Part shown: one piece after another, positions 1-38,347 of the stretch
How positions within the stretch are numbered: position 1 is the stretch's first letter
Layout of the letters: every line of letters starts with the position of its first letter
Assembly (NCBI GenBank): GCA_017512175.1
Contig: JAFWHA010000009.1
Coordinates: 1-38,347, forward strand
Source: Candidatus Saccharimonadota bacterium
GTDB lineage: Bacteria; Patescibacteriota; Saccharimonadia; Saccharimonadales; Saccharimonadaceae
Direction of reading: 5' to 3'
Length of the DNA stretch: 38,347 bases
Notes under the pieces: model-generated
What the model was told of the DNA's origin: nothing
What the model saw: the letters and a program-made list of their open reading frames with translations, nothing else
The model's database searches: none
Translations under genes and position numbers: made by a program

Positions 1-1
1 A

Positions 2-1168
2 TCTACATATACTTTTACTATCCCTAGTGGAATTAGTAATATGCCAATTAAGACTAATATGGTTATAAAAGAATGGAACACTAAACCAGATGGTACAGGA
101 ACAGCTTATGCACTAGGCGATAAGTATACTATTACTATAGATGATACTAGTCCTCATTCTAATGAGGCTACACTTTATGCTATCTGGACTAAAGATTTCT
201 TCTCTATTGCTAGTATGCAAGAAATGTATCCTACTGTTTGTGCTAAACTCTACACTCCATCTAACGCTACTGGCACTAACGCTACGGCTATTACTCTGAC
301 TTCTGATAATGCTGGTACTGTTCCTAGTGCTAAAGCTACGCAAGCTGTCACTAACTATGCAGGATATAAGTCAATTGTAACTAGTAGCGGCTCCGTATCT
401 GGGGATAACCAGCCTTATGTCGCACAACGCACATTGTCAGACATTAGAGACTCGAAAAAGTACACCATTAGAAAGATGGCTGATGGGAATTGTTGGATGG
501 CAGAAAACCTAAATTTTTCTCTATCGGCTGGCACACGACTAACTAAAGACAATACTGACATTTCTTCAGACTGGACAATACTTGCTATCGAAGCAAGCGA
601 AACTGCTGTTAGTAAAAAGTGGGGAACTGGAAGCAATTGGGGCGACACGTCGCAAATTACGGATGGAGAAATTAATACCGTACATAGTTTTAATGGAGTT
701 AGTTCGGAAACTACGACATCCTATGGCGGAGAGACGCAGAAAATTGGAGTTTATTATAATTGGTATACTGCAACGGCAAAATCAGGTACAGCGAGCTCAG
801 GAGCTGGTGTCGTTGCACCATATTCTATTTGCCCAAGAGGATTTAAACTACCAGATAATTCTGGCGAGAAATCTTTCGCAAATTTGATAAACCTTAAGTA
901 TGGGCTAGTGAGCGATAGTGAGCCGTCTAGCTATATTATTGGAAGATGGCCGCTGTCGTATATGCCCTCTGGGAACTATACTTGGTACGTGCCTGCGCTT
1001 TCATCTCACGGGACACATGGGTATTATTGGTCTAGTACTAGCCAGAGCCGTACGAATGCGCATGGTATGGGGGTATATACAGTGTCACAACAAAATATAT
1101 TCGTAATTAGCAGCCAGAATAATTATGTAAAAGCGGCTGGAATAAGTGTGCGTTGTGTGTCAAGATAA
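2..1168 (+). CDS. FISUMP-domain surface protein, 3' part (5' end outside window)
   Basis: The frame is open from base 2, before the first ATG at 41, so this is the C-terminal 388 residues of a longer protein. The first ~60 residues end an InlB-type Listeria-Bacteroides repeat (WNTKPDGTG ... TLYAIW), the same module seen in the protein starting at 37046. A short linker (SIASMQEMYPTVCAKLYTP) leads to the FISUMP domain, which starts at YTIRKMADGNCWM (bases ~460-499) and ends GISVRCVSR. The domain is thought to adopt a C-type-lectin-like fold and the protein is presumably displayed outside the cell; no LPXTG signal is seen. Bases 419-499 are an 81-bp perfect inverted copy of 1773-1853. The 3' end is AT-rich and lacks the NNC-rich variable region of the other FISUMP domains here. 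The function of the domain is not known. Confidence 0.85.
   Translation, partial: STYTFTIPSGISNMPIKTNMVIKEWNTKPDGTGTAYALGDKYTITIDDTSPHSNEATLYAIWTKDFFSIASMQEMYPTVCAKLYTPSNATGTNATAITLTSDNAGTVPSAKATQAVTNYAGYKSIVTSSGSVSGDNQPYVAQRTLSDIRDSKKYTIRKMADGNCWMAENLNFSLSAGTRLTKDNTDISSDWTILAIEASETAVSKKWGTGSNWGDTSQITDGEINTVHSFNGVSSETTTSYGGETQKIGVYYNWYTATAKSGTASSGAGVVAPYSICPRGFKLPDNSGEKSFANLINLKYGLVSDSEPSSYIIGRWPLSYMPSGNYTWYVPALSSHGTHGYYWSSTSQSRTNAHGMGVYTVSQQNIFVISSQNNYVKAAGISVRCVSR
419..499 (+). repeat. 81-bp inverted repeat, arm 1 (junction site S1)
   Basis: This arm is identical, in reverse orientation, to 1773-1853. It encodes VAQRTLSDIRDSKKYTIR and the MADGNCWM motif, so it spans the junction between the upstream part and the FISUMP domain. 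Bases 429-450 are the 22-bp core also found at 1822-1843, 36691-36712 and 38325-38346. Recombination between the two arms would invert about 1.35 kb and exchange the C-terminal domain in frame. Confidence 0.95.
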
Positions 1169-1172
1169 GAAT

Positions 1173-1838
1173 CTATAAGGCTACACAGCGGACATTAAAC
1201 CCGTAGTACTTGCCGTCGCTGTTCTGCGGGTAGACGCGCGTCGTGTCGAAGAACAGGTAGTAAGCGCGGGTAGCAGTACTATAAGCGGTAGAAGACCACC
1301 AGTGGCCTAAGCCGCTACTCAGGAAGGCACCCGAGGTGAAGTGGCCGGCGCGTGGAAGGGTAAATGGGAAGGCTTCTAATATCTGGTATTCGGAAGTGGA
1401 GGAGTGATTAGCAGGATTGACACCGTAAGTGTTCAGTAGGGAGCCCCAAGATTTCTGCGCTCCTCCACTAGGATATTGTTTATTTGTGTAATTAGCTGGT
1501 AGTCTCCAATGTGCTGGACAGATAGAGTTTGTAGCATCGCCATCGCTAGTAGTCATACTAGATGTTCCACTCCCAGCAGTGGCAGCATACCAAGTGTAGT
1601 ACCAAGTATTGAAGGTGCTACCATAGGCAGTATTACCATTCATAATACAAGCTGCATTGGTATTTCCATTACCACAAATAGCTCCAGTATTGAATGTAAT
1701 CTGCTCTCCAGTAGTATTGTTAACACCAGTACGAGTACTGTTAGCATATAACTCATATTTAAGGTTAGAGCTCATCCAACAATTCCCATCAGCCATCTTT
1801 CTAATGGTGTACTTTTTCGAGTCTCTAATGTCTGACAA
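1173..1838 (-). CDS. Promoterless FISUMP C-terminal cassette (probably silent)
   Basis: A complete FISUMP domain, SDIRDSKKYTIR then MADGNCWM through to YYGFNVRCVAL, without signal peptide or N-terminal part. The only possible start is TTG at 1836-1838, without ribosome-binding site; the same TTG is an internal leucine codon in the gene at 2-1168. The frame continues upstream to an in-frame TAG at 1890-1892. The stop lies 4 bp from the stop of the convergent + strand gene. The first 81 bp are identical to the junction of that gene, so an inversion would fuse this domain to the expressed N-terminal part. Its last ~56 codons (1185-1352) form a GC-rich, NNC-codon-rich region matching those at 27598-27765 and 36030-36200. 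I interpret it as a storage cassette, not an independently translated gene. Confidence 0.7.
   Translation of the reverse strand: MSDIRDSKKYTIRKMADGNCWMSSNLKYELYANSTRTGVNNTTGEQITFNTGAICGNGNTNAACIMNGNTAYGSTFNTWYYTWYAATAGSGTSSMTTSDGDATNSICPAHWRLPANYTNKQYPSGGAQKSWGSLLNTYGVNPANHSSTSEYQILEAFPFTLPRAGHFTSGAFLSSGLGHWWSSTAYSTATRAYYLFFDTTRVYPQNSDGKYYGFNVRCVAL
1185..1352 (-). other. Variable region A of FISUMP cassette (DGR-like)
   Basis: On the minus strand this runs from CGC GCC GGC to GTC CGC TG. Compared with 27598-27765 and 36030-36200 the invariant codons are mostly A-free (GGC, TTC, TGG, GCT, CTG, GTC, GGG), while differing codons are mostly NNC, for example TAC, TTC, GAC, CGC, AGC, GGC. This pattern is known from diversity-generating retroelements, where template AAC codons become NNC. 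Confidence 0.6.
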
Positions 1839-1853
1839 TGTGCGTTGTGCGAC
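1773..1853 (-). repeat. 81-bp inverted repeat, arm 2 (junction site S2)
   Basis: Perfect reverse-complement copy of 419-499, at the 5' end of the reversed FISUMP cassette. Identity stops abruptly on both sides (after GTTGGATG, and before GTCGCAC), which suggests recent homogenisation or recombination, because the flanking FISUMP sequences are far less similar. Confidence 0.95.
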
Positions 1854-1920
1854 TATAAAAAATAGCCTCGAATTTGACTCCCACCACGTCTAAACTTGCA
1901 AAAACTTAATGTCGTAAAAT
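1851..1920. repeat. Conserved 70-bp cassette-border sequence, copy 1
   Basis: This segment aligns without gaps with 36720-36789, by my count 58 of 70 positions identical. In both places it directly precedes the 5' end of a reversed FISUMP cassette. It carries TTTGACTCCCACCA, GTCTAAACT and GCAAAAACTTAATGTCG. Read with the cassette, both copies have an in-frame TAG followed by T-W-W-E-S-N. It is absent upstream of the expressed junctions at 419 and 38309, so it marks silent cassettes. Confidence 0.75.
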
Positions 1921-1928
1921 AATCATGA

Positions 1929-13739: not shown

Positions 13740-14192
13740 TTATTTCTCCTTTTTAGTTAATACTTTTTCCACCTGCTTCTTCAATTTTTGCCCGACGCTT
13801 TTTAGGTCGATTACAAAATCATTATTAGGCGCGGCCGCCTTAGCCTTGTTCTCGTACAACTTCTTAGAAACATCATATAAACCTTGGATATGATTTTCCA
13901 AGAAATAATAATGTTTAACATAGAAGATGGATAGTATCCACATAATTAATGTTGCTAGCATCATTGGAAAGAAGCTCATCCAATAATCCATTTTTACTAG
14001 CACCATCGCAAAAATAACGATCATTGTCAAAACAAATGTTAATCCAACAAAGAATAACATAATAATTAAATGAATAAATCTCTCGTGTTGAAAATTAGCA
14101 ATCATCTTATCGTGATATGCAATTAAGTCATCGGTAGGACTATTCATCTTTTTCTTAATAAAATCTTCATAATCTTTAATTCTTTGTTCCAC
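13740..14192 (-). CDS. Two-TM membrane protein of unknown function
   Basis: A 150-residue protein not recognised by family. Residues 1-38 are charged and helical, two TM segments follow (~39-63 and ~69-92), and the C-terminal ~55 residues are basic and helical (KKLYENKAKAAA ... KKQVEKVLTKKEK). Both ends should be cytoplasmic. The start is GTG 14192, only 3 nt after AGGAGG (14196-14201), unusually close; no better in-frame start is obvious before Met16. The upstream region is a 39-bp tandem duplication containing this promoter, ribosome-binding site and start. It is co-transcribed with the SDR gene. Confidence 0.7.
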   Translation of the reverse strand: MEQRIKDYEDFIKKKMNSPTDDLIAYHDKMIANFQHERFIHLIIMLFFVGLTFVLTMIVIFAMVLVKMDYWMSFFPMMLATLIMWILSIFYVKHYYFLENHIQGLYDVSKKLYENKAKAAAPNNDFVIDLKSVGQKLKKQVEKVLTKKEK

Positions 14193-14260
14193 ACTCCTCC
14201 TTTTTTATAATTATATCACAATTTGTTCCACACTCCTCCTTTTTTATAATTATATCACAA
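14183..14260 (-). repeat. Exact 39-bp tandem duplication covering promoter, RBS and start codon
   Basis: Copies 14183-14221 and 14222-14260 are identical. Each contains, on the minus strand, TATAAT, AGGAGG and GTG GAA CAA. The outer copy therefore starts a mini-reading frame GTG GAA CAA ATT GTG ATA TAA, which ends in the TATAAT of the inner copy. The precise identity suggests a recent duplication. Confidence 0.9.
14210..14215 (-). promoter_or_regulatory. −10 box of two-TM protein / SDR operon
   Basis: TATAAT on the minus strand, about 18 nt from the GTG start; repeated identically in the tandem copy at 14249-14254. Confidence 0.6.
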
Positions 14261-20695: not shown

Positions 20696-22276
20696 GTGAC
20701 TAAAATTCAGATTACAGATGACACTGATACGAAAAAAGCGGCTAAAGAAGTGGCCCAGAAATCTAGTGCCCGCAAAACCTCTAAATCTACTAAAAAGATA
20801 TCTGTAGATACTACTGTTGCTGAGCCAAAATCAGTCAAGAAAATTAAGATTGAAGACGATAAGATTGAAGCTAAGAATAGTAAAAAGGTATCTACGGAAA
20901 AGAAATCTGCTAAAAAAGTTACTGCTTCTAAGAAATCTAAAAGAAATGTCAAAGTAGAGAAGACTACTACTAAAACTTCTGAAATTAGAGTTAGAAAGAA
21001 AAAATCTGCTAAAAGTTCTACTGAGAAATCTGAAAAATCTAAGAAATCTTCCTTTACTAGAAGCACTCCACCAGTTTCTGTAGCTGCTACTCATAGTAGT
21101 GTCCAGAGATCTACGGCTCTTTCTCGCCGTTACGTAAAGAGGCCGCTCAATGAGTCTATTGCACCGGAAAAGTCAGAAGTTATAAAAATAGCTGAAGCAC
21201 CGAAGCCGGTAGAAACTGTTGAGGCGCCGAAGCCAGTAGAGATAAAAGAGACACCGAAACCAGTAGAAGTTATTGATGTACCGAAACCAGTAGAAGTGGA
21301 AGAAACGCCAAAGCCGGTAAAGATTGAGGAGGCGCCAAAACCAGTAGAGATAAAAGAGACACCAAAACCAGTAGAAATTGAGGAGGCACCAAAGCCTACA
21401 ATTGTCGAGCCTGAGGCTGGTAATGGTGTAGCCGTTCAAACTGAGGTAAGTATACCAGTAACGACAAGGAAAGATTCGGAGCCGGAAGTCGAGAAAAAGT
21501 CTCTTTCTAGGGCAGAAGCTAAAAAAGAACGTCAAGCTGCAAAACAGGCTAAAATTCAATCTCGTTTAGAAGAAAAACGAGCGCGTGCAGAAGCAGAAGC
21601 TAAGAAGCAGGCGGAGATTGCCAAGAAAAAAGCTGAAGCCAAGCAACGAAAAAATGAGGCTGCCAAGAAGAAGGCAGAGGCGAGAAGAGAAGCTGCTAAT
21701 AAGAAACAGTCAGCTTTAAGATTCGCGGCTAGATCCACTTCCAAGCTTTCCGCTGTTATCTCTACCGAAAATGCCGCAGGAGAAGCGGAAATGCATCGAG
21801 AATTCCGCAAAAAGAAGAAAGGTAGTCGCATAGCATTAGCTCTGCTTTGTTCAGCGATTACGGTTGGAGCTTTGGTCGCTTATGTCCATTTCAATATGCC
21901 AGATATCTCCGTGAAAGTCGCAGCGATGCAGACTGGAATTGATGCTTCATATCCGGATATTATTCCGCGTGGATATTCACTCAAAAACGTTTCTTCGGAC
22001 AAAGATGGTGAGATTTCGATGACTTTCGAAAATACCGATGGCAATACTTTTGTCTTGACGGAAGAAAAGACTACTTGGGATAGCAATGCGCTGCTTACGA
22101 ATTACGTCAAGAAAGTTATGTCATCCGAATTTTCTACAATGCGTGAACAAGGTGTGACAATTTATTCCGAAGGAGATTCTGCTACGTGGGTGAGTAATGG
22201 CATTTTTTACAAAATTAAATCTTATGGCAAGAATCTAACAAAAGAACAAATTCGAAACCTCGCTACTTCCGTTTAG
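20696..22276 (+). CDS. Lysine-rich PKP-repeat membrane protein
   Basis: A 526-residue protein with GTG start, 9 nt after GGAGG (20682-20686). Residues 1-~150 are Lys/Ser/Thr-rich and unstructured; ~167-238 are eight 9-residue units of the form EAPKPVEIK; ~265-345 form a charged coiled coil (AEAKKQAEIAKKKAEAKQR). One TM segment (~380-400) is followed by a ~125-residue extracellular domain ending SNGIFYKI ... LTKEQIRNLATSV, which resembles DUF4367-like domains. The Pro-Lys repeats recall TonB-type spacers that span distance, here on the cytoplasmic side. The function is unknown. Confidence 0.75.
   Translation: MTKIQITDDTDTKKAAKEVAQKSSARKTSKSTKKISVDTTVAEPKSVKKIKIEDDKIEAKNSKKVSTEKKSAKKVTASKKSKRNVKVEKTTTKTSEIRVRKKKSAKSSTEKSEKSKKSSFTRSTPPVSVAATHSSVQRSTALSRRYVKRPLNESIAPEKSEVIKIAEAPKPVETVEAPKPVEIKETPKPVEVIDVPKPVEVEETPKPVKIEEAPKPVEIKETPKPVEIEEAPKPTIVEPEAGNGVAVQTEVSIPVTTRKDSEPEVEKKSLSRAEAKKERQAAKQAKIQSRLEEKRARAEAEAKKQAEIAKKKAEAKQRKNEAAKKKAEARREAANKKQSALRFAARSTSKLSAVISTENAAGEAEMHREFRKKKKGSRIALALLCSAITVGALVAYVHFNMPDISVKVAAMQTGIDASYPDIIPRGYSLKNVSSDKDGEISMTFENTDGNTFVLTEEKTTWDSNALLTNYVKKVMSSEFSTMREQGVTIYSEGDSATWVSNGIFYKIKSYGKNLTKEQIRNLATSV
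21194..21409 (+). repeat. 27-bp tandem repeat, eight units (PKP repeat)
   Basis: Eight 9-residue units with core PKPVE, third positions diverged, encoded in the preceding gene. The divergence indicates an old, selected protein repeat, not a recent slippage product. Confidence 0.9.
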
Positions 22277-25752: not shown

Positions 25753-27777
25753 ATGCTAAACAAAATAAAGAATAGAGTATCGACTCGAAGAACGTCGAGT
25801 AAAAGTGGATTAACATTACGAGGACATCAGAGATGGATAGTAAGCGTGGTTTCCGTGTTCCTGCTGGCTTTTGTCACTGCTTTTGTTGCATCTTCTGTCT
25901 TTTCTCCGCAAAACACCACTAATGCCGATACGCTATACTTTAATGTTACTGGCTCAGACTACACTACCTCCGTCAAGTCTGCCGATAACATAGTGATCAA
26001 TATGAAAGCGACACCTTCTGGCAACGTGGCAATTGCGCACGATACTGTAACTACCGTTACCGACAATCCAGATGGTTACCAGCTATATTTCTCTATGGAC
26101 CAGCTAGCAGATTATGATGCTGCTCACCCTGGCAATGCACTATATAAAGATGGTAATACTACTGCCTCCCAAATGCTGAAGCCGACTACTGCAGCCGCAT
26201 CTGCTCCGGCGGTGCTAGATGGTAATACTTGGGGATTTGCGATTCCGACAGGGCAGACTGGTGTTCCGAGCACTATGAATAACTTTGACTCGGCTTATTC
26301 TGATACTTCTGCTAGTATGAATAAGTTCGCTTTCACTCCACTACGCTCTTCTGCCGTTAAAGTCCAAGAACGTTCTGGCTCCCCTACTACTACCGAAGGG
26401 GATAATCTAGAAATCTATTACGGAGTTAAGGCTAATCTAGCAGTAGACCCTGGCCAGTATACTGGCACAGTCAACTATTTCGTCGTATCCGATACTTCTA
26501 TCTCCTCCTTTGACACAATTGCAGTTAACCCTACCGTAATCAGTCCGAATGGTGGAGAAAACCTAACCATCGTGACTAGCCTACATACTAACTATGCTTT
26601 TACTAGCTCTGACATTAACGTAACTATCACTAGCAAGACTGATAGTTCTAACTCTAAGGCTTGCACGATTAATGGTATTAATGCTGACACGGGGAACGTA
26701 ACAATTAGCTGCGTCGCTCCAGCCCTACTAACTGGAGACTACGAAGTAGAGGTAGAAATACCATCTTATGGGAAGGACTGGACCGCAGACCTAACAGTAT
26801 CCTCTGCTCCAGCTACTTTCTGGAACATTACCTACATGCAGGAAATGACTGCAGATGTTTGTAGTAACGTCACTACTCCATCTAGGACAGCTGGGGAGGA
26901 AGATACTAACGGCTCCCACGCAGGCGATGCTGCTTACGTTCCGACCAGAGTGCTTTACGACTGGCGTGGCAAAGATGGTACTGGAAGCATCACGAACAAA
27001 GTCGCTCCAAATAGCGCTAATGCCCAGACCTATACTATCAGAAAACTCGCTGATGGCAACTGCTGGATGACGGAAAACCTCAACCTTCCACTCTATAAGA
27101 ACTATACTACTCCTGGCATGAACACGGATGCAACTAACTTAACTGCGCAACCAGTAGAAGTAGCAGATATCAACGGAAATATCGTCAGCCAGAGTAGGAC
27201 GGATAGTGTCTATGGTAATATCACTTCTGATGGTGTCTGGACTCCGGTTAAGGCTCCTAACTTGACTGACAACGATGACACTTACGCTCTTAATGGTAAT
27301 ACTGCCTACAATATCGGTAATACTGGTGAGGCGGCTGCCTGGAATGATATCTGGTACTACTCTTGGAGTGCGGCGACAGCCGGCTCTGGCACAGCAGACA
27401 TGGTCACTTCTAGTGGTGATGCTGGATACTCCATCTGTCCGAAGGGCTGGAAGCTCCCGACTAACTACACTAATAGCGTATCTACTTCTGCAGCTAAATC
27501 TTGGGGCTCCCTACTAAACACCTATGGTATTAGCCCTACTTGGCATGAGACTACTTCCGCATACCAGATACTAGAAGCCTTCCCATTCAACCTTCCCCGC
27601 GCCGGCTACTTCCACTTTGGTGCCTTCCAGAATAACGGCGTCGGCCACTGGTGGTCTTCTACTGCTTATAGTACTGCTACCCTCGCTCGCCTCCTGCACT
27701 TCAGCACGAAGGGCGTCAATCCGCAGAACTACTACTCCAAGTACTTTGGGTTTACTGTCCGCTGCGTGTCGGCCTAG
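25753..27777 (+). CDS. Secreted FISUMP-domain surface protein with DGR-like variable end
   Basis: A 674-residue exported protein. A basic N-terminus is followed by a signal or anchor segment (~29-52, WIVSVVSVFLLAFVTAFV), then beta-rich domains (~60-360). The linker FWNITYMQEMTADVC (~357) precedes the FISUMP domain, which starts at YTIRKLADGNCWM (~430) and ends FGFTVRCVSA. The last ~56 codons (27598-27765) form an NNC-rich variable region related to those of the reversed cassettes. The start is supported by GGAGG 4 nt upstream. It has its own promoter and folded leader. Unlike the proteins at the window ends it lacks the 22-bp junction core, so it should not take part in the inversion. Surface display and ligand binding are inferred. 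Confidence 0.88.
   Translation: MLNKIKNRVSTRRTSSKSGLTLRGHQRWIVSVVSVFLLAFVTAFVASSVFSPQNTTNADTLYFNVTGSDYTTSVKSADNIVINMKATPSGNVAIAHDTVTTVTDNPDGYQLYFSMDQLADYDAAHPGNALYKDGNTTASQMLKPTTAAASAPAVLDGNTWGFAIPTGQTGVPSTMNNFDSAYSDTSASMNKFAFTPLRSSAVKVQERSGSPTTTEGDNLEIYYGVKANLAVDPGQYTGTVNYFVVSDTSISSFDTIAVNPTVISPNGGENLTIVTSLHTNYAFTSSDINVTITSKTDSSNSKACTINGINADTGNVTISCVAPALLTGDYEVEVEIPSYGKDWTADLTVSSAPATFWNITYMQEMTADVCSNVTTPSRTAGEEDTNGSHAGDAAYVPTRVLYDWRGKDGTGSITNKVAPNSANAQTYTIRKLADGNCWMTENLNLPLYKNYTTPGMNTDATNLTAQPVEVADINGNIVSQSRTDSVYGNITSDGVWTPVKAPNLTDNDDTYALNGNTAYNIGNTGEAAAWNDIWYYSWSAATAGSGTADMVTSSGDAGYSICPKGWKLPTNYTNSVSTSAAKSWGSLLNTYGISPTWHETTSAYQILEAFPFNLPRAGYFHFGAFQNNGVGHWWSSTAYSTATLARLLHFSTKGVNPQNYYSKYFGFTVRCVSA
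27598..27765 (+). other. Variable region B of FISUMP gene (DGR-like)
   Basis: This 56-codon region has variable codons CTC, CGC, CTC, CAC, AGC, GGC, TAC, TAC, TCC at positions where copies A and C carry other NNC codons, inside an invariant frame (GCT..CTG..TTC..ACG, GTC, CCG CAG, AAG TAC, GGG, GTC CGC TGC). The domain position, the last part of a C-type-lectin-like fold, is the usual place of DGR targets. Confidence 0.6.
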
Positions 27778-36017: not shown

Positions 36018-36707
36018 TTAAATGGAGACGCAGCGGACATTAAGCCCGTCGTACTTGACACTGACGGCCTGTGGATAGACGCTCGTCGTCGTGTAGAAGG
36101 CCAGGTAGTAAGCGCGGGCAGCAGTACTACCAGCAGTAGAAAGCCACCAGTAGCCGCTGCCGTTATTCCGGAAAGCACCCGAGTTGAAGTAGCCGGCGCG
36201 GGGAAGGTTAAATGGCTGCCCTACTAATGTTTGCCATTCGGAATCCGAAGCGTGGTTTTCTGGAGAGATATCGTAAGCGTTTAGCAAATATCCCCAAGAT
36301 TTATTAGCTCCACCACTCGGATATTGCTTGTTAGTGTAGTTAGTTGGTAATCTCCAGTGAGCTGGGCAGATAGAGTTTGCTGCATCTCCGTTATCGAAAG
36401 TCGTACTGGCTGTCCCGCTCCCAGCAGTAGCGGCATACCAAGAGTAGTACCATTCCCCATACCATTCGCTACTAGTGTCTGTATTCTCTGTAGTATTACC
36501 ATTCATAATACAGGCGGCATTAGTGTTACCATTCCCACAGACAGCTCCAGTATTGAACGTAATAGTATTTCCAGTAGTATTATTAACTCCAGTATAGGTT
36601 TTATTAGCTTGTAACTCGAACTTCAAGTTATCACTCATCCAACAATTCCCATCAGCCATCTTTCTCACTGTATAGGATTTGCTAGGTTGTTCTCTAATGT
36701 CTGACAA
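36018..36707 (-). CDS. Promoterless FISUMP C-terminal cassette (probably silent)
   Basis: A 229-residue FISUMP domain from SDIREQPSKSYTVR and MADGNCWM to YDGLNVRCVSI, without N-terminal part. The only start is TTG 36705-36707, without ribosome-binding site, and it corresponds to an internal codon in the full-length genes. Upstream the frame reaches a TAG in the conserved 70-bp border sequence. The first half is clearly related to the cassette at 1173-1838 (GVNNTTG, ITFNTGA, CGNGNTNAACIMNGNT shared); the last 57 codons carry the NNC-type variable region. The 22-bp core at 36691-36712 is inverted relative to 38325-38346, so inversion would join this cassette to the N-terminal part of the gene starting at 37046. 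Confidence 0.7.
   Translation of the reverse strand: MSDIREQPSKSYTVRKMADGNCWMSDNLKFELQANKTYTGVNNTTGNTITFNTGAVCGNGNTNAACIMNGNTTENTDTSSEWYGEWYYSWYAATAGSGTASTTFDNGDAANSICPAHWRLPTNYTNKQYPSGGANKSWGYLLNAYDISPENHASDSEWQTLVGQPFNLPRAGYFNSGAFRNNGSGYWWLSTAGSTAARAYYLAFYTTTSVYPQAVSVKYDGLNVRCVSI
36030..36200 (-). other. Variable region C of FISUMP cassette (DGR-like)
   Basis: On the minus strand this has 57 codons, one ACG more than copies A and B. Variable codons here include AAC, AGC, TAC, GCC, TAC, AGC, GCC, GTC, GTC, GAC; CGG stands where the others have CTG and CAG, so only the middle base of C-N-G changes. Confidence 0.6.
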
Positions 36708-36712
36708 TGTGC
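36691..36712 (-). repeat. 22-bp junction core, site S3
   Basis: It reads GCACATTGTCAGACATTAG plus AGA on the minus strand; identity to the right-end site (38322-38346) extends to 25 bp. It includes the short dyad TGT-CAG-ACA. Confidence 0.9.
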
Positions 36713-36719
36713 TTTTTAA

Positions 36720-36789
36720 GACTATGGAAAATGAGGCTAAATTTGACTCCCACCATGTCTAAACTCGCAAAAACTTAATGTCGCAAAAT
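36720..36789. repeat. Conserved 70-bp cassette-border sequence, copy 2
   Basis: Ungapped match to 1851-1920 (58 of 70 by my count), also directly upstream of a reversed FISUMP cassette. It is followed by the promoter of the gene at 37046. Confidence 0.75.
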
Positions 36790-36824
36790 GCGCAACTTTT
36801 TGCTTGTGTTTTTTAAAAATGTGT

Positions 36825-36830
36825 TACAAT
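36825..36830 (+). promoter_or_regulatory. Extended −10 promoter of the FISUMP gene at 37046
   Basis: TGTTACAAT with TACAAT at 36825-36830; the −35 region (TTGCTT or TTGTGT near 36800-36809) is off optimal spacing. The transcript would begin near 36837, just before the folded leader. Confidence 0.5.
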
Positions 36831-36849
36831 GGAATTATAAATTAAAAAT

Positions 36850-37027
36850 CCCGGCAGGATTTGAACAAAATTAATTTGCATTTTTGAAACTGAGATTTTG
36901 TTGATATTCACATAGGCGAAGTAGTGGCTATAACGTGCACTTCTGTTGTCTTATGTGAACATCGGAAATGCTATGTTTGAATCCTGCCGGGTTTAGACCG
37001 TTGTAGCCACTATTTTGTAGGGTGGCT
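36850..37027 (+). promoter_or_regulatory. Structured mRNA leader with loop-flank pairing (candidate switch)
   Basis: An 18-bp closing stem with two G-U pairs (36850-36867 with 36974-36991), a 12-bp stem (36903-36914 with 36952-36963) and a hairpin 36918-36943. The hairpin loop 36923-36935 (AGTGGCTATAACG) can pair over 13 bp with 36999-37011, just outside the closing stem. That strand (37005-37010) can instead pair with 37022-37027, just upstream of AAGGAGG (37036-37042). The topology equals that of the leader at 25508-25725 although the sequences differ. Confidence 0.65.
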
Positions 37028-37045: not shown

Positions 37046-38347
37046 ATGCCAAAAAGTATAGAGAAAAAACTGTTTATCGCTTCAGCTATTTTTGGTGTTC
37101 TTGGTGTTATATCAGCTTCTATCACTAATATCCCTCCCGCTTCCGCCACAACTGATTCCTCTGCTTCTTCTGATGTTACGGTAACCCTGTCGGATATTAT
37201 TGCTCTTAGGATATTAGATAGTACTGCTAGTTCAGAAATAAGTAGTCTAGTACTTAATCTTACCCCTACTCCTAATGGTGTATTTACCAAAGGAAGCTTT
37301 AATGTAGAAGGCTCTACGTCTAATGTTACAGGCTATAAGCTATATATGACTAGTATTGGTACTAACCCAGTAAGTAATGGTAGCAGCAGTGGGGATAATA
37401 GTGGCGGTGATAGTACTACTGCTACCTATACTACAGACCTAGTTAATACAGACTCTAGTGTAACTGGAGATACTGGACTAATACCTACCTTAGTATTACC
37501 TTCTGGAGTAGATACTATTACAGAAGCAGAGTTTAGGGTAAGTAATTCTAACTATAAGAACATGTGGGGATACAGTCTTAATGGTCTTACAGTATCTTCT
37601 ACTACTAATCCTTCTACTGGTCTAGTAGAGAATACTATTACAGAAAACAGTGACACTTCTGCTATTACTTATACTAGTATTCCAGCCCATAGTACTAACA
37701 CATTAGTAGATGAGTTTACTTCATCAGTAGAGAGTGGTCTTACTCCAGTCACTATTGGTGTTAATGTTAGTAATAGTAAAGCTTCTGGCACCTATAAGAA
37801 CACTCTAGAGTTTACAGCTATAGCTAATGAGATACCTATAGACTATAAGCTAACGTTCAATGCTAATACAGACGGAGCTGGAGGAGAGGATATGAGTCAG
37901 ATTACTAACCTATATAGTCCTCTAACTTATTCTAGTATAGCTTCATCACATACCTTTACTCTACCTAACCCAGCAGACAATAGTAATGCTCTAATTAGGA
38001 ATAACTATATGTTCTCTGGTTGGAATACTAAGCCTGATGGTACAGGAGATACTTACAAAGCTGGAGCAGAGTATACTATTGTGATTGACGATACTGATCC
38101 TTATTCTAATGAGAATACACTCTATGCTACATGGAAACCACTACCAAACTTCTGGAAGATAGCTAATATGCAGGATATGACTACTACTGTATGTAATTCT
38201 GTCTATACTCCTACTAATGCTACTGAACTTACTACTCCTAAGGCCATTATGATAGATAAACTAGCTGCCCAAGCAGGAAAGTATGAAGCTACATCAGACA
38301 ATACTAGCCCTAATGTCGCACAAAGCACATTGTCAGACATTAGAGAT
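37046..38347 (+). CDS. FISUMP surface protein, N-terminal part (3' end outside window)
   Basis: The frame is open from ATG 37046 to the last base, 434 codons without stop. Signal peptide: MPKSIEKK then a hydrophobic stretch (LFIASAIFGVLGVISASI), likely cleaved near ASA-TT. Residues ~40-270 are Ser/Thr/Asn-rich and beta-like. An InlB-type repeat follows (~275-370: KLTFNANTDG ... FSGWNTKPDGTGDTYKAGAEYT ... TLYATW), then the linker FWKIANMQDMTTTVC and VAQSTLSDIRD at the very end, where the FISUMP domain should begin. AAGGAGG lies only 3 nt from the ATG. The window stops 1 base after the 22-bp core. The architecture equals that of the gene at the left edge. Confidence 0.85.
   Translation, partial: MPKSIEKKLFIASAIFGVLGVISASITNIPPASATTDSSASSDVTVTLSDIIALRILDSTASSEISSLVLNLTPTPNGVFTKGSFNVEGSTSNVTGYKLYMTSIGTNPVSNGSSSGDNSGGDSTTATYTTDLVNTDSSVTGDTGLIPTLVLPSGVDTITEAEFRVSNSNYKNMWGYSLNGLTVSSTTNPSTGLVENTITENSDTSAITYTSIPAHSTNTLVDEFTSSVESGLTPVTIGVNVSNSKASGTYKNTLEFTAIANEIPIDYKLTFNANTDGAGGEDMSQITNLYSPLTYSSIASSHTFTLPNPADNSNALIRNNYMFSGWNTKPDGTGDTYKAGAEYTIVIDDTDPYSNENTLYATWKPLPNFWKIANMQDMTTTVCNSVYTPTNATELTTPKAIMIDKLAAQAGKYEATSDNTSPNVAQSTLSDIRD
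38325..38346 (+). repeat. 22-bp junction core, site S4
   Basis: Same core as at 429-450, 1822-1843 and 36691-36712, inverted relative to 36691-36712. It is the last complete element of the window. Confidence 0.9.

Follow-up and report, generated by a model that had tools for sequence, protein, structure and literature searches.

In the shufflon of plasmid R64, inversion by the tyrosine recombinase Rci, acting at sfx repeats, exchanges C-terminal segments behind the constant N-terminal part of pilV. Invertible type I hsdS loci and the vsa, vpma and mpl systems of Mycoplasma also swap protein parts or promoters by inversion, each via a single tyrosine recombinase, and we know of no dif-derived sites with locus-specific spacers in any of them. 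Among the Mycoplasma systems, HvsR and Xer1 are named (cited in PMC3599477). In Ureaplasma parvum, XerC inverts the mba locus (the UU172 phase-variable element), and CodV binds dif (PMC3599477). A dif site comprises ∼28–30 bp, with two imperfect inverted half-sites of 11–12 bp around a 6-bp central region, which is the place of exchange (PMC5357621). Xer is exploited by other elements and by pdif modules, examples being CTXphi, the GGI and Acinetobacter plasmids (PMC5357621, PMC9947245). Diversity-generating retroelements with Fib_succ_major targets act on the same domain family as that described below (PMC4159848).

Here, we analyzed a stretch of 38,347 nucleotides (the window), which is the whole of contig C3 from a Candidatus Saccharimonadota genome (G000, a MAG of 611,729 bases in 17 contigs, 72% complete), alongside related genomes, mostly of ruminant-gut Candidatus Saccharibacteria and including MAGs from goat, sheep and other samples. 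We consider it likely that the window contains a switch in which site-specific inversion of DNA gives a secreted or surface protein a different C-terminal FISUMP domain, most likely through the action of Xer. In the open-access literature, no paper was found on inversion-driven phase variation or on a dif site in Saccharibacteria, and none joining Saccharibacteria with FISUMP; the few open-access papers that join Saccharibacteria with phase variation appear to treat other matters.

The proposed Saccharibacteria switch is a new variant with respect to the systems above, in that its sites match dif, its spacers are specific to each locus and the only recombinase common to carriers is the housekeeping Xer. 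It shares with the R64 shufflon a constant N-terminal part, alternative C-terminal segments and several silent segments, but its sites resemble dif, not sfx, and its FISUMP cassettes are scattered over many chromosomal loci. Nor does it qualify as an Rci-type shufflon, as no rci-like gene was seen beside the cassettes of the window. Like the mba system, it would combine an Xer-family tyrosine recombinase and short inverted repeats with switching of part of a surface protein in a small-genome bacterium. In Ureaplasma, however, inversion and dif binding fall to two enzymes (XerC and CodV, respectively) and the repeats do not correspond to dif, whereas the Saccharibacteria sites match the arms of chromosomal dif, the housekeeping Xer is the sole shared recombinase, and the spacers are distinct for each locus. 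The hsdS and Mycoplasma systems differ in that other proteins are switched, by dedicated recombinases. As with CTXphi, the GGI and pdif modules, host Xer is implicated at dif-like sites whose central region influences which sites recombine; but those elements are mobilized or integrated, while the Saccharibacteria sites lie in frame within genes and would swap protein domains. Finally, the retroelements diversify the same domain family at a C-terminus, whereas here the variation is through whole alternative cassettes and not through single bases. No template/variable-repeat pair came to notice in the locus, without a dedicated search for one.

The preliminary description of the window had reported, from the left end alone, a perfect 81-bp inverted repeat whose arms fall at one and the same codon in each of two intact FISUMP domains, and each part of that account was borne out. 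The arms are fully complementary and 1273 nt apart (Table 1), making the probability of a chance origin negligible. The two domains face each other tail to tail, the stop codon of cassette 1 (1166–1168) being 4 bp from that of cassette 2 (1173–1175), and both score above the TIGR02145 cut-off (41.65 bits). Both arms begin at the same Val codon (419 and 1853), and inversion in silico generates an intact ORF of 365 aa, running from base 2 to the end of cassette 2, in line with the in-frame exchange that had been proposed. Reversed cassette 2 was also said to lack start signals. Indeed, an in-frame stop lies 13 codons upstream of it, there is no ATG, GTG or TTG before an internal TTG at 1838, no RBS above chance was found for it, and promoter-like matches in the locus 1 region (8 versus 7.1 expected) do not exceed chance. 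Outside the arms, cassettes 1 and 2 show ∼35% aa identity.

Table 1. Coordinates of features in the window
Feature	Position	Strand	Basis or remark
Constant N-terminal region, 3' part, of expressed surface-protein gene	1–418	+	Open frame from base 2
Dif-like site s1, expressed side, TATGTCGCACAA-CGCACA-TTGTCAGACATT	416–445	+	20/24 arm positions equal genus dif consensus
Inverted-repeat arm, left, 81 bp	419–499	+	100% complementary to right arm
FISUMP cassette 1, expressed position	419–1168	+	TIGR02145 60.2 bits, PF09603 34.7 bits
FISUMP cassette 2, silent, reversed, intact ORF	1173–1853	−	TIGR02145 53.8 bits
Inverted-repeat arm, right, 81 bp	1773–1853	−	Inverted-repeat search
Dif-like site s2, silent side, spacer CGCACA as in s1	1827–1856	−	19/24 dif arm positions
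Conserved silent-context element beside reversed cassettes, containing dif-arm-like TTTTACGACATT (on −)	1854–1921		
Non-switching FISUMP gene (internal control)	25753–27777	+	8/24 arm positions; no dif-like site at homologous position
FISUMP cassette 3, silent, reversed, upstream of second surface-protein gene	36018–36722	−	TIGR02145 39.3 bits
Dif-like site s0, ATAGTCTTAAAA-AGCACA-TTGTCAGACATT, left arm of silent type	36696–36725	−	Pattern match and arm scoring
Second N-terminal 'head' gene, ATG at 37047, signal-peptide-like start	37047–38347	+	ORF list, sequence inspection
Dif-like site s1' of second gene, AATGTCGCACAA-AGCACA-TTGTCAGACATT	38312–38341	+	21/24 arm positions

The start of the N-terminal gene of locus 1 lies beyond the contig. 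Bases 1–115 are shared exactly with two other contigs, C11 at its end and C16 at its start, and hence the head of this locus could not be resolved between the two. The part of the gene on C11 starts with MSKSIEKKLFIASAIFGTLGVISASI, which is signal-peptide-like, and C11, joined by the exact overlap toward locus 1, carries a head gene and a reversed silent cassette in a layout like that of locus 2 (see below). Part of the silent-context element forms a 50-bp direct repeat (1871–1920 and 36740–36789, 94%), with more copies at most silent sites. In the copies at 1854–1921 and 36723–36789, and at L063 and L064 in G019, the element includes, at ∼60 bp from the site, a dif-arm-like TTTTRCGACATT, as well as a short stem-loop (stem TTTAGAC...GTCAAA, loop GGNGGGAG). 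It was found in two species and was not seen in the other carriers examined.

The outer part of each 81-bp arm is a 30-bp dif-like tyrosine-recombinase site, made up of 12-bp inverted arms and a 6-bp spacer and read in frame as V-A-Q-x-T-L. Across species, the site takes the form AATGTCGCACAA-spacer-TTGTACGACATT, again with two inverted 12-bp half-sites and a 6-bp spacer. This is the anatomy of dif (AATGTCGCACAA-N6-TTGTNCGACATT), which sites of the window match at 16–21 of the 24 arm positions, with those at 419, 1853 and 38315 at 19–21; the score of s1 is reached at only a handful of window positions. In the genome as a whole, the repeat core is not unique but recurs at 14 FISUMP sites. FISUMP genes of another type in this genome contain no such site, matching dif at 7–10 of the 24 arm positions at the homologous place, which indicates that the FISUMP fold itself needs no dif-like motif. 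In two head genes of other genomes (L118 in G072 C43, from 1527; L273 in G070 C11, at ∼2109), the dif-like site leads into a short tail that is not FISUMP and ends at a stop (VPQRTLCDNHFQVN-stop, for example), possibly representing an empty or OFF state.

We searched for the core AATGTCGNACAA-N6-TTGTNCGACATT (≤3 mismatches) in 174 genomes of the genus and found it in 155, as a single copy in nearly all; the reversed pattern, used as a control, gave zero matches in the same 174. The single-copy site, typically AATGTCGCACAA-TATAGA-TTTTACGACATT, is one on which the coding strand converges from both flanks (left mostly +, right mostly −) in 9/9 genomes, while the change in GC skew is less clear. 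Given its uniqueness and this convergence of genes, as at a replication terminus, the single-copy site is probably the chromosomal dif, insofar as sequence alone can tell. The dif of G000 itself was not found in the incomplete MAG (72%). Genomes with multiple copies are the carriers of reversed FISUMP cassettes: G000 and G032 have 10 copies each by the ≤3-mismatch core search (the 14 in G000 being the total of FISUMP sites), G021 has 8, G070 and G074 have 6, and G072 has 5. Across the order, the core occurs in 203 of 393 genomes, and high counts are confined to this genus. No FISUMP cassette follows the site-like matches found beyond the genus, in G237 and G194, and the pattern had no match in viral contigs. 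Second dif-like sites were also seen in G087, where a near-perfect palindrome (C10:31998–32027) lies within ∼5 kb of xer, and in G089 (C2:15828 and 20342, 4.5 kb apart). These extra sites may mark Xer-integrated elements.

At the right end of the window (36.0–38.3 kb), a second layout is seen. Here, ∼320 bp containing a promoter-like element (TTGCTT/TACAAT, ∼36800–36832) and an AGGAGG RBS (∼37038) separate reversed cassette 3 from the second head gene. Cassette 3 falls just below the TIGR02145 cut-off and has 68% aa identity to cassette 2. The contig ends (38347) 6 bp past s1', precisely where the known cassettes of the genome diverge (GATAGT / GATGGT). Several other elements were noted. The leader of the second head gene (36849–36995) contains inverted copies of CCCGGCAGGATTTGAAC, which are tRNA T-arm-like (GGGTTCGAATCCTGCCGGG type) and were not called as tRNA. 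Two perfect tandem 39-bp copies (TTTGTTCCACACTCC...) at 14183–14260 lie just upstream of the gene at 13740–14192, and 27-bp tandem repeats (21183–21396) encode a PKPVEIKE-type repeat in the protein of 20696–22276. Elsewhere in the genome, C6:1550–2872 (L019) holds a tail-to-tail cassette pair in which both sites are in silent context, i.e. a storage pair without a head gene.

Spacers proved identical within closed pairs (the window; G000 C6; G032 C2 and C9; G021 C3 and C5; G028 C37) and among linked sites (36722/38315; G070 153/1403/3801; G032 C3-end/C13-end and C12-end/C13-start), and usually different between loci. The spacer of chromosomal dif, where found in carriers, differs again from those of the cassette sites. 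From a simple tally for G000, G032 and G021, with independence of sites assumed, such grouping within genomes is expected by chance ∼3 times in 100,000. The bodies of paired cassettes are 34–50% identical, no more than those of unpaired cassettes, so whole-cassette duplication in the recent past does not explain the spacer match. For instance, C6a is 67% identical to window cassette 2, which has a different spacer, versus 35% to its own partner, which has the same one. One caveat here is that local duplication could account for part of the matching.

Left arms follow another pattern. In the AGCACA group of G000, silent sites have GTCTTAAAA (4/4) and expressed sites have GTCGCACAA (2/2). Similarly, silent sites of G070 have GTCGCTTAA (GTC GCT TAA, with an in-frame stop; 4/4), compared to GTCGCACAA (GTC GCA CAA) at the expressed site. 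The left arm thus goes with its context, as would be expected if strands were exchanged inside the spacer and the cassette moved. One right-arm base differs in G019 between the expressed site and the silent site with which it shares a tail.

An invertible C-terminal switch had been inferred in the preliminary description from a single locus. Comparative evidence supports that inference, although the inverted form has not been observed directly, as neither reads nor a second genome of the species were at hand. The outer part of the repeat corresponds to a site of which genomes otherwise have a single copy, and spacers, unlike cassette bodies, are matched within pairs. The tail-to-tail arrangement is found also in G032, G021 and G028, which, together with the window, have the layout of a C-terminal inversion switch (a constant N-terminal part and reversed C-terminal segments, with inverted in-frame sites). 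Silent cassettes are full-length and under purifying selection (dN/dS 0.12–0.34 among G000 cassettes), suggesting that they are probably expressed at times. Assemblies break at the sites much above expectation: 3 of 14 sites in G000 (0.2 expected) and 5 of 9 in G032 (0.1 expected, P ∼8e-9) are ≤250 bp from a contig end. Contigs C3 (head, expressed) and C13 (silent flank) of G032 have an exact 141-bp tail in common, which starts at the site, and C2 and C38 of G019 have 141 bp in common. Mixed orientations could explain these observations, though so could a static repeat if it were 141 bp or longer. As such a repeat yields the same graph, the 141-bp tails of L058/L059 were dropped as proof of two orientations. 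No Rfam match was obtained in the locus. Cassette 2 has no sequence relative in the PDB, its AlphaFold model is of low confidence (mean pLDDT 63.7), and Foldseek returned no significant match to this model.

G000 encodes three tyrosine recombinases (PF00589), all on contigs other than that of the window, and no serine recombinase was found in this genome. The recombinase on C9 (47054–47995) is the housekeeping Xer. XerD is its best model; it falls below the XerC and XerD equivalog cut-offs and above that of the archaeal XerA-type model, and its sequence shows GLRVSEL, HTLRHSF and LGHSNISTTQIYTH. Xer is present in one copy in 158/174 genus genomes, and it is the only recombinase common to carriers (7/8). 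In G074, G021 and G019 it is the sole PF00589 protein; no serine recombinase was found in G074. A serine invertase was rejected as the agent, being absent from G000 and present in only some carriers. No PF00589 protein was found in G028, a carrier with two matched sites that is 97% complete, which perhaps reflects an assembly gap. The housekeeping Xer is the most likely agent of inversion; its binding to, and recombination of, the cassette sites are inferred. Canonical XerCD/dif exchange requires FtsK at the septum, and action at distant sites would therefore need an FtsK-independent mode. Such a mode is described for archaeal XerA (PMC5357621).

There is a small but real chance that a dedicated recombinase acts at the cassette sites instead, as XerC (UU222) does in Ureaplasma, where it is CodV that binds dif and the two roles are divided between enzymes (PMC3599477). 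G000 does have two additional tyrosine recombinases, in a 305-aa frame on C14 and a 369-aa frame on C11, and no Xer was found in carrier G028. The C14 enzyme was rejected for this role, however, because its type is scattered through cassette-free genomes and missing from G021, G019 and G074, the very carriers in which nothing but the housekeeping Xer represents PF00589, and the arms of the cassette sites are those of dif. Another possibility, which we regard as improbable, is that the copies are shaped by RecA-type homologous recombination or gene conversion, the motif at the cassette start being a mere coding constraint. Against this reading stand the occurrence of the motif as the single-copy dif of the genus, the non-switching FISUMP genes of G000 that do without it, left arms that remain with their context, and spacers that match where bodies do not. 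Yet in the window arms perfect identity continues for ∼54 bp past the dif-like core, other cassettes too have stretches in common downstream of the site, and the G019 tails are identical past the right-arm mismatch. Since spacer exchange leaves the 81-bp identity beyond the site unexplained, some homologous recombination or gene conversion seems to be needed alongside site-specific inversion.

That the arrangement is merely static, the cassettes being paralogues duplicated in inverted orientation that undergo no inversion at present and the contig breaks being due to ordinary repeats, seems quite improbable to us. No inverted junction has been seen, and N-terminal regions are repeated between loci (C3 and C10 are 95% identical), which is enough to break assemblies. 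But copies without start signals retain full ORFs, with the dN/dS values given above, the layout recurs across species despite the dissimilarity of cassette bodies, spacers are matched within loci, and the window stops just past a site, at the very point of divergence between cassettes. A false inverted duplicate created in assembly is harder still to credit. The genome is a short-read MAG whose contigs end at repeats; nonetheless, the architecture is repeated in several species MAGs assembled separately (goat, sheep and other samples), and the two cassettes of locus 1 differ beyond the arms, as noted above.

We therefore retain inversion at dif-like sites as the preferred reading. Our sequence comparisons establish the anatomy of the sites, their likely identity as dif (from uniqueness and convergent strand), the matching of spacers, the integrity of silent cassettes and the recurrence across species; present-day inversion, Xer as its agent and surface (antigenic) variation as its purpose are inferred. 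In the proposed mechanism, an in-frame dif-like site for a tyrosine recombinase heads each FISUMP cassette, and spares are kept reversed behind their own copy of it, without start signals. Xer, normally active at chromosomal dif, would pair two inverted sites whose 6-bp spacers are identical and, by exchanging strands there, invert the DNA between them. At locus 1 (419–1853), the two tails would flip; at locus 2 (36.7–38.3 kb), it is the promoter and the N-terminal head that would do so, with a tail on either side. The spacer would serve as the address of the locus. On balance, we lean toward a broader interpretation, namely that Xer and dif of this ultra-small Saccharibacteria lineage have been co-opted as a genome-wide tail shuffler, in which dif copies lie in frame, locus-specific spacers act as addresses that prevent recombination between loci or with dif, and tail-flip and head-flip layouts are both used.

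The means by which CPR bacteria such as Saccharibacteria vary their host-facing surface are largely unknown. If our interpretation is true, the switch would be a new route for surface variation in Saccharibacteria, and an essential housekeeping recombinase would double as a generator of diversity, making a dedicated invertase unnecessary. The spacer code yields direct predictions, and two or more dif-like sites in one genome would provide a simple signature for finding such systems elsewhere.
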